Positions 9,490-38,003 of a stretch of 64,000 bases of DNA are shown piece after piece; the stretch's first letter is position 1; each line of letters begins with the position of its first letter. The DNA is from Haloarcula mannanilytica (GTDB lineage Archaea > Halobacteriota > Halobacteria > Halobacteriales > Haloarculaceae). The stretch is from positions 372,001 to 436,000 of the forward strand of contig NZ_BIXZ01000002.1 of assembly GCF_005406125.1 (NCBI RefSeq). The letters run 5' to 3'. Made by a program: the position numbers and the translations under genes. Below the pieces are notes generated by a model that searched no databases, was not told where the DNA came from, and was given only the letters and a program-made list of their open reading frames with translations.

Positions 9490-9738
9490 ATGGCTAATCT
9501 GGAACTCTATGAACTCGAAGGCTGTCCGTACTGCGCGAAGGTAATCGAGAAACTCGACGAACTGGGCCTCGACTACGAATCCCACATGGTCCCGCGGTCC
9601 CACGACGAGCGGACCGAAGTGAAGGAGGTTTCGGGCCAGACCGGCGTTCCGGTCCTCGTCGACAAGGACAACGGCGTCGACGGGATGCCCGAATCCGACG
9701 ACATCGTCGAATATCTCGAAGAGACGTACGGGCAGTAG
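9490..9738 (+). CDS. Glutaredoxin-like protein (GST N-terminal type)
   Basis: A compact 82-residue thioredoxin-fold protein with the redox motif CPYC at residues 12-15 and the cis-Pro motif TGVPVLVD near residue 54, as in glutaredoxins and the N-terminal domain of glutathione S-transferases. Haloarchaea use gamma-glutamylcysteine rather than glutathione, so the physiological thiol probably differs. The ATG at 9490 is preferred to an upstream in-frame TTG/ATG at 9454-9466 because the fold begins at NLELYELEG. The last 35 bases of the gene recur downstream (see repeat at 9842). Confidence 0.92.
   Translation: MANLELYELEGCPYCAKVIEKLDELGLDYESHMVPRSHDERTEVKEVSGQTGVPVLVDKDNGVDGMPESDDIVEYLEETYGQ
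9703..9737 (+). repeat. 3' end of glutaredoxin gene, first copy of direct repeat
   Basis: Starts ATCGTCGAATATCTCGAAGA and runs 35 bases up to the TA of the stop codon. It is repeated at 9842-9876 with one change (ATC to ATT, silent for Ile). Confidence 0.95.
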
Positions 9739-9753
9739 CGATATTCTGTATCG

Positions 9754-9841
9754 CGGTCGCGCCATGCGCGACCGTTTTTCGCCCACGTTTTTCGAGGAGT
9801 GGTTCGCGCGGTTAGCGCGAACCCGACACTGAAAAAGGTGG
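9754..9841. repeat. Modular hairpin element A
   Basis: Begins with a 9-bp stem (9754-9762 with 9766-9774), then TTTTTCGCCCACGTTTTTCG, a second perfect 9-bp stem GGTTCGCGC/GCGCGAACC (9801-9809 with 9815-9823), and ends in AAAAAGGTGG at 9841. CCACGTTTTT and AAAAAGGTGG can pair with one mismatch, giving an outer stem. The same plan occurs at 18228-18479 and 29819-29945. The element ends exactly where the second copy of the glutaredoxin 3' end begins. Confidence 0.85.
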
Positions 9842-9876
9842 ATTGTCGAATATCTCGAAGAGACGTACGGGCAGTA
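9842..9876 (+). repeat. Second copy of the glutaredoxin 3' end
   Basis: 34 of 35 bases match 9703-9737, offset 139. Read in the same frame it still encodes IVEYLEETYGQ and a stop, but nothing upstream could initiate it. The remaining spacer to the next gene (9877-9933) shows nothing further. Confidence 0.95.
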
Positions 9877-18227: not shown

Positions 18228-18479
18228 CTGTCCGCGAACGAAGTGAGCGGTTCACCGAACGCGAGCGGAGCGAGCGTTCGGCCTTTTTCGCCACTGAAAG
18301 ACTCGCTGTACTCGTCTTTCGAGCCCTCGTTCGCTCCGTTCACGAGGACCACGTTTTTCGAGTCGAGCGGGACCGAAGGTCCCGCTGACCATGCGAACGG
18401 GCGCTTTGCGCCCGTGAGCAGAGAGTCTTCCCGCAACGGCGCTTCGCGCCGCGAGGAAATCCGACGACGAAAAAGGTGG
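18228..18479. repeat. Modular hairpin element B (largest copy)
   Basis: Occupies most of the 405-base gap after citZ. It starts with a 30-base stretch (CTGTCCGCGAACGAAGTGAG...) identical to 29819-29848, then the stem CCGAACGC/GCGTTCGG followed by CCTTTTTCGCC. Further stems are GAAAGAC/GTCTTTC (18296-18320), CCTCGT/ACGAGG (18325-18347), AGCGGGACC/GGTCCCGCT (18366-18386), ACGGGCGC/GCGCCCGT (18397-18415) and CGGCGC/GCGCCG (18437-18451). It contains CCACGTTTTTCG and closes with GAAAAAGGTGG at 18479. No start-stop frame here looks like a protein. The rest of the gap (18114-18227, 18480-18518) shows nothing. Confidence 0.85.
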
Positions 18480-29818: not shown

Positions 29819-29945
29819 CTGTCCGCGAACGAAGTGAGCGGTTCACCGCGCTCGAACGCCGTTCGAGCGCGGCCTTTTTCGCCCACGTTTTTGCACGGGG
29901 GTTGAGGGCGCTACGCGCCCTCAACCCCCCCGTGGAAAAAGGTGG
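29819..29945. repeat. Modular hairpin element C, beside tRNA-Ser
   Basis: Starts with the 30-base stretch identical to 18228-18257, then a perfect 12-bp stem (CCGCGCTCGAAC 29846-29857 with GTTCGAGCGCGG 29861-29872) followed by CCTTTTTCGCCCACGTTTTT, then a second perfect 15-bp stem (29897-29911 with 29915-29929, loop TAC), and ends GGAAAAAGGTGG at 29945. The mature 3' end of tRNA-Ser, on the other strand, is two bases beyond, so the tRNA trailer would run straight into the element. Confidence 0.85.
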
Positions 29946-29947
29946 TA

Positions 29948-30029
29948 CGCCAGGACTGGGATTTGAACCCAGAATCCCGAAAGGGAACACGCTTTCCAGG
30001 CGTGCGCCTTACCGTTCGGCCATCCTGGC
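29948..30029 (-). tRNA. tRNA-Ser (GGA)
   Basis: 82 bases on the minus strand. Acceptor stem GCCAGGA/TCCTGGC with discriminator G, a D-arm with GGCCGAACGGTAAGGC, anticodon loop CTGGAAA giving anticodon GGA, the long variable arm typical of serine tRNA, and T-loop GGTTCAAATCC. No intron. CCA is not encoded. Confidence 0.97.
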
Positions 30030-37743: not shown

Positions 37744-37932
37744 ATTGCTTGCAGCAAAACCCGCCGGCCGGGAGTGAGCGAACCAGAGTGTTCGCGAACA
37801 TCGGGCGGCAAACGACCGCAGGGAGTGCGCCGGCCGGGAATTGAACCCGATGGCGAGACTCACTCCGTTCGCCTCGCGTGATTCAATTCCCTGTGGACTG
37901 CATTTGCTGCTCGCGAATTGCTCGCAGCAAAA
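37744..37932. repeat. Partial tRNA-Gly copies and hairpins past the tRNA-Gly 3' end
   Basis: Most of the 312-base gap between the zinc-finger gene and tRNA-Gly. A 24-base copy of the tRNA acceptor/T-arm (TGCGCCGGCCGGGAATTGAA...) lies at 37826-37849, identical to 37933-37956 (offset 107). An older copy, 37744-37773, matches 37917-37946 at 27 of 30 bases. TTCAATTCCC (37882-37891) is an inverted copy of the T-arm. TTTGCTGC/GCAGCAAA (37903-37910, 37924-37931) forms a stem. Bases 37621-37743 show nothing except an AT-rich stretch. Confidence 0.85.
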
Positions 37933-38003
37933 TGCGCCGGCCGGGAATTGAACCCGGGCTATTGCCTTGGGAAGGCAATGTCCTACCACTGGACCACCGG
38001 CGC
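37933..38003 (-). tRNA. tRNA-Gly (CCC)
   Basis: 71 bases on the minus strand. Acceptor stem GCGCCGG/CCGGCGC with discriminator A, D-arm GGTCCAGTGGTAGGAC, anticodon stem-loop TTGCC-TTCCCAA-GGCAA giving anticodon CCC, T-loop GGGTTCAATTCCC. No intron; CCA not encoded. Past its 3' end lie several partial copies of its own 3' half. Confidence 0.97.

Follow-up and report, generated by a model that had tools for sequence, protein, structure and literature searches.

A dispersed hairpin element is associated with duplicated gene ends in Haloarcula and related haloarchaea

The glutaredoxin locus of Haloarcula mannanilytica contains an insertion, in which a gene tail and a structured element have been placed ahead of the native tail, and our comparisons support the view that the duplicated end of this gene was created by the insertion of a hairpin element of about 100 bases. 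In the window (the whole stretch of DNA that was analysed, 64,000 nucleotides), the 35-nt 3' end of a glutaredoxin-like gene recurs at a spacing of 139 with 34 of 35 positions identical (97%), the single mismatch between the copies, ATC to ATT, being silent. The downstream copy begins one base past GAAAAAGGTGG (9831-9841), that is, after GGTGG, and 104 bases (9738-9841) separate the two copies, so that the coordinates and the exact right boundary described in an earlier note on this DNA are confirmed; the left insertion edge cannot be fixed because it falls within the repeat. The tail repeat is not a chance match. An unbiased scan for direct repeats (at least 20 nt exact, spacing 70-400), covering 844 kb of the 4.2 Mb source genome (contig 2 and part of contig 1), returned 23 pairs, and the glutaredoxin pair is the only one of these with the present element between its copies, more diverged tail duplications (for example L002, L003 and L005) falling below the exact-match threshold of the scan.

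The glutaredoxin-like gene is present in all 32 genomes searched in the genus. Scoring was possible at 29 loci, of which 24 have a single tail and no element (empty) and the remaining 5 are filled. The earlier note had suggested that the arrival of the element created or used the duplication, and this tie between element and duplicated tail is borne out by the empty sites in close relatives and by the same association in 72 of 151 family copies. Three junctions occur among the filled loci, at -36 (three genomes), -27 and -55. The filled locus of G019 equals the empty locus of G027 plus 139 bp, and the flank 3' of the second tail copy is 100% identical between the two over ~420 bp. In G019 the downstream tail copy is of the native G027 type (GAAGAA) and the upstream copy of the G000 type (GAAGAG), which implies that the native tail stays downstream as a relic, and that the new tail and the element arrived together. 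The second copy (R') corresponds to the native tail left behind in relatives, and carries the ATC to ATT scar at 9844. The scar ATTG is common to G000, G001 and G019, indicating that the filled allele has passed from one species to another, for which homologous recombination over short tracts is the simplest route. The upstream tail copy is not always local, being a different allele in G019 and, at another gene, in G001 and G027.

Table 1. Features of the glutaredoxin locus and other family members in the window
Feature	Position	Strand	Basis
R, functional tail: final 35 bases of the glutaredoxin gene, to TA of the TAG stop	9703..9737	+	sequence, repeat search
Hairpin 1, CGGTCGCGC-CAT-GCGCGACCG, terminator-like, soon after the stop codon	9754..9774	+	fold
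T5C motif no. 1 (TTTTTC)	9775..9780	+	sequence
Element core CCACGTTTTT...GAAAAAGGTGG, imperfect inverted repeat, fixed G.G mismatch	9783..9841	+	fold
T5C motif no. 2 (TTTTTC), left arm	9788..9793	+	sequence
Inner hairpin GGTTCGCGC-GGTTA-GCGCGAACC, exchangeable	9801..9823	+	fold, relatives
T5C motif, right arm	9831..9836	-	sequence
R', second gene-tail copy, downstream	9842..9876	+	repeat search, relatives' loci
Family copy with a long inner module; its right end abuts the promoter of the next gene	18349..18479	+	
Family copy whose right end lies 2 nt away from the tRNA-Ser(GGA) 3' end (tRNA at 29948-30029, minus)	29883..29945	+	

Compared to shuffled sequence, the insert folds far better (z = -5.5 for 9739-9841); it is ordered as a hairpin shortly past the stop codon, then TTTTTCGCC, and then the imperfect palindrome CCACGTTTTT...GAAAAAGGTGG (Table 1). 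Throughout the family the arms are constant (TTTTTCGCC-CAC-G-TTTTT ... AAAAA-G-GTGG), the first T-run is kept in ~93% of the 151 copies, and the terminal arms CCACGTTTTT/AAAAAGGTGG are imperfectly inverted around a fixed G.G mismatch, with conservation reaching left to TTTTTCGC. The stems covary. For the inner stem, double changes were found at 6/16, 9/21, 10/20 and 4/16 predicted pairs in four length classes. The outer arms were assessed on relaxed arms, because the exact-core search biases arm statistics; apart from the CCAC/GTGG majority, they compensate (CGAC/GTCG, GAAC/GTTC, GCAC/GTGC) and pair at 3.1 of 4 positions compared to 2.2 when shuffled, the compensatory pairs being CG/CG, GA/TC, GC/GC and GT/AC. 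No known structured RNA of Rfam 15 matched the element apart from a single sub-threshold P17 match (E = 0.18).

The motif TTTTTC, present downstream of the gene end on both strands (twice in sense and once in antisense), recalls the archaeal T5C terminator, which stops 95% of transcripts in a Haloferax volcanii reporter (PMC7237163); unlike a plain T5C terminator, the hairpin element is a dispersed repeat that has arms and modules and is accompanied by duplicated tails. The element is likely to act as a bidirectional transcription terminator or insulator. This is the favoured functional reading, and it agrees with the location of copies between convergent genes and ahead of promoters described below. 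Such a role would explain why the element is tolerated at gene ends and occupies them as far as the following stop codon, tRNA or promoter.

The core CCACGTTTTT-N15-45-GAAAAAGGTGG was found in 70 of the 392 genomes of the order, nearly all of them Haloarculaceae (named genera: Haloarcula, Halomicroarcula, Halorientalis, Halosimplex, Halomicrobium, Salinibaculum, Halovenus and a few others), and the reversed pattern, used as a control, gave 0 matches in the same 392 genomes. Core matches in L121 (a Kurthia contig) and L221 are isolated, lie outside haloarchaea or in poor context, and are probably due to chance. The exact core pattern has no match in viral contigs, and a viral origin was rejected on this ground; the intergenic repeats of HF1-like viruses were also set aside, as they are AT-rich promoters unlike the hairpin element. 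The family is widespread in salt-loving archaea and apparently undescribed: the open-access literature on PATE/SMR/MITE, REP/BIME and intergenic repeats contains no gene-tail-duplicating family, and an earlier description elsewhere is possible.

In 48% of the distinct flanked copies (72/151), compared to ~3% in a mismatched-pair control, the tail of the upstream gene is directly repeated at the right end of the element; these copies represent 42 independent gene-tail clusters. A long open reading frame ends at most 120 nt upstream of the core in 83% of the tail-duplicating copies (control 26%). The duplications affect ordinary host genes, are mostly 25-125 nt long and exhibit no clear reading-frame bias in their length modulo 3; about half of all copies have none. 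Of the 79 copies with no duplication, 37 have a convergent stop codon no more than 12 nt from their end (control 2.4%) and some are flush with tRNA 3' ends; for ~11, a TATA-like box lies ~10 nt and a start codon ~40 nt to the right. These classes rest on open reading frames and not on annotation, and the promoter class on a simple motif. The element fills the gap between a stop codon and the next functional feature or the duplicated tail.

We compared empty and filled sites at four genes in total (glutaredoxin and three others) in up to 32 genomes, and insertion, tail duplication, recurrence, module exchange and allele import are all shown. The nucleotidase-like gene has five tail-duplication junctions in different species (-57, -63, -68, -91 and -102), which implies that insertion recurs at one gene, with the element end fixed and the return point variable. 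Another gene followed in the genus has a single junction type common to twelve genomes, the others being empty, and tandem arrays of tail and element, (R-E)n, also exist. The element itself is a mosaic, as BIMEs are. The copy at 18.3 kb has an identical right junction in 14 Haloarcula-genus genomes (L314-L327), yet the inner hairpin at this junction is of at least 5 unrelated types, some with additional hairpins in the left arm; at the glutaredoxin locus the inner hairpin is swapped for an unrelated three-hairpin module in G001 (L013). At the nucleotidase-like gene of G001 and G027, the upstream copy ends in SASN(P/S)QSEQSAVGD versus SNGADAGRATADD; this foreign C-terminus has 77% identity to the tail of a relative, while R' and the downstream flank are native (94%), as is the upstream sequence (94%). 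The altered C-terminus implies that the insertion changed the protein. Efficient gene conversion has been reported in Haloferax volcanii (PMC8223754) and could explain why R and R' resemble each other within a species.

The junctions carry a constant scar. In 39 of the 42 independent junctions, the first three bases past GGTGG agree with the gene, 23 of them in register 0 and 16 in register +1, whereas random positions give a match in 29%. By inspection, three gene bases followed by one changed or inserted base are seen in 37 of the 42 gene tails. Position 4 matches the gene at random (0.27), and from position 9 onward the match is ~0.9 or better; the base inserted in the +1 class is C or T in 16 of 16 cases, and gene bases 5-8 at the junction are purine-rich. 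In-register microhomology between the right end of the element and the gene before the junction shows no excess (0.15-0.36 matches per base), which counts against plain microhomology-mediated template switching. We know of no process that makes a 3+1 junction of this kind. The constancy of the scar is the strongest hint of a defined enzymatic step and argues against simple slippage.

Our best reading, in which we place about even confidence and in which the mechanism of the primary event is inferred, is that the element is a bidirectional terminator with a mosaic structure, which spreads at gene ends through template switching or recombination. It draws on the empty and filled sites at four genes, the G019/G027 pair and the excess of tail duplications over the mismatched-pair control; on the convergent stops, the copies flush with tRNA 3' ends, the varied junctions and the tandem arrays; and on the covarying arms and stems, the efficiency of T5C (PMC7237163) and gene conversion (PMC8223754). 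The element may, though we are less sure of this step, reach new gene ends when replication or repair switches template at a palindromic terminator. In this scheme, the growing strand would quit the host terminator at its T-run, copy the element from another locus or from donor DNA, and come back from the right end of the element to a nearby position. A return within the gene would give a tail duplication, and a return further on would delete the spacer. The module swaps at the conserved 18.3-kb junction and at the glutaredoxin locus fit copying from ectopic elements. Once formed, the cassette of R, element and R' could supply homology arms for empty alleles and would spread between strains via ordinary homologous recombination and gene conversion. 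Template switching leaves the 3+1 scar unexplained.

The imported tails admit another possible, though less probable, account, in which a donor fragment of the same gene, taken from another strain and already bearing the element, recombines homologously on the left, is broken at the hairpin base on the right, and is joined illegitimately inside or beyond the recipient tail, so that R is donor and R' native. The nucleotidase-like gene of G001 and G027 fits this, with R foreign and both R' and its surroundings native, as does G019, where the glutaredoxin R is G000-like and R' G027-like. However, import of donor DNA leaves unexplained how the element first enters a gene without one, and the imported alleles could equally stem from normal two-sided recombination of filled and empty alleles, G000, G001 and G019 having the ATTG scar in common. 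Dedicated transposition is rather unlikely in our view: an enzyme would nick one strand within the tail of the gene and the opposite strand past the T-run of the terminator, insert the element and fill in, leaving a long and variable target-site duplication. The exact right end, the consistent scar, the purine preference at positions 5-8, the pyrimidine insertion in every +1 case and the recurrent use of the same genes all point in this direction, but no linked gene exists, about half of the copies have no duplication, duplication length is broad, and the 32 genomes contain no reverse transcriptase (PF00078) and in 11 cases no Y1 transposase, these including G019, which has a recent filled site. 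From the same searches, reverse-transcriptase routes (TPRT-like or DGR-like) were rejected, with PF00078 in 0 of 32 Haloarcula-genus genomes and positive control genomes, as was Y1/RAYT mobilisation, since several of the 11 genomes without PF01797 carry elements.

Tandem duplication of the tail together with an ancestral element, the downstream one of the two elements then being lost, would make the empty sites excisions between R and R'. The (R-E)n arrays and a degenerate second element-like sequence past R' in L036 agree with such a history, which is nevertheless very unlikely given that 24 of 29 glutaredoxin loci are cleanly empty and that R' of the filled strains continues into the same native downstream sequence as in the empty strains. 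We consider site-specific integration at the gene 3' end, in the manner of an integrase at a tRNA and with 9703-9737 as attL/attR, to be highly improbable. A small insert flanked by direct repeats of a gene end is what it would produce, but the length and position of the repeat vary among genes, and among species at one gene, there is no common att sequence, and the core has no exact counterpart in viral contigs. The earlier note had drawn an analogy with integrative elements at tRNA 3' ends, and it is not supported, since duplication length is variable, the junction position at one gene differs between species, and a scar replaces an att-like block of identity.

More tentatively, and with doubt, these patterns may belong to a haloarchaeal mobility process for non-coding hairpins, in which an end-specific 3+1 junction rejoins the right end of the element into the host gene, and the gene gains a new or donor 3' end and a bidirectional terminator while the old tail is kept as a relic. 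The same or a sister process might act at tRNA genes through elements with an inverted T-arm copy as their left arm. If so, it would amount to transposition by fold-back or tail copying, distinct from the DDE, HUH, tyrosine-recombinase and retro-transposition types.

Similar to the tRNA 3'-end integrative elements, the hairpin element is an insert flanked by a direct repeat of the host gene end, but it differs in its 104-bp size, within which there is no integrase gene, in its variable repeat and in its scarred junction. The likeness to REP/BIME sequences lies in short dispersed palindromes at gene 3' ends, with mosaic modules, compensatory stems and a position at terminators or mRNA ends (PMC2817692, PMC3733652), and the fixed-junction module swaps and the covariation place mosaic palindromic modules at gene ends here too. 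REP/BIME sequences number in the hundreds, whereas the hairpin element has about 0-17 exact copies per genome, duplicated host-gene tails and constant T5/A5 arms, and compared to REP/BIME with RAYT, a third of the genomes of its genus have no Y1 transposase. The SMR, PATE and MITE of Haloquadratum walsbyi are likewise haloarchaeal, transposase-free, ~50-110 bp long and furnished with inverted or near-terminal palindromes; SMR and PATE make no target duplications, MITE make those of the transposase type, and they mainly hit other mobile elements (PMC3119063). In contrast, the hairpin element has interchangeable inner modules and long gene-tail duplications at ordinary genes (72/151 copies), mostly of 25-125 nt and thus unlike the short target-site duplications of fixed length in MITE. 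Diversity-generating retroelements have a comparable arrangement, in which two gene tails resembling a variable repeat and a template repeat stand on either side of a hairpin; here, the genus has no reverse transcriptase, and the tails differ at the junction and not at adenines.

A dispersed terminator that copies or replaces host 3' ends can rewrite C-termini and 3' UTRs and insulate neighbouring genes, and its junction scar is a readable mark for tracing events. Many of the odd partial repeats of genes in Haloarculaceae are explained by the element, which also offers natural insertion polymorphisms with built-in homology arms. It also raises a testable question, namely which enzyme or repair route lies behind an end-specific, scarred, one-sided junction with no recognisable transposase.

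Other repeats of gene tails were observed. At C2:170138 of G000, three near-identical gene-tail copies (TGAGCGACATCGGCGAGCTACTGTGA) stand in tandem with no recognisable element between them. The helicase gene of L003 has in the relative L257 an insertion of ~960 bp with a complete open reading frame for a small membrane protein (207 aa), flanked by a gene-tail duplication of 135-150 nt with no hairpin element; the insertion in L259 is similar. A second family of tail-duplicating mini-elements is found at tRNA genes, in the window at 37826-38003 with tRNA-Gly CCC (37933-38003, minus), and elsewhere in the source genome at C2:162318, 449054, 520930 and 634167 and at C1:39702. The layout of this type is the tRNA end, a hairpin, an inverted T-arm copy, another hairpin and a direct repeat of the final 20-30 nt of the tRNA, with a spacing of 107-139 nt, and the copied T-arm folds into a long stem (z = -4.9). 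The same type of element occurs at the tRNA-Ser GGA locus of relatives (GTCTTCTGTGACTGACTGCGAG... with duplicated GTTCAAATCCCAGTCCTGGC; L346, L349, L351-L355, L357, L364, L366 and L372), where the strain of the window carries a terminator-type element flush with the tRNA instead.
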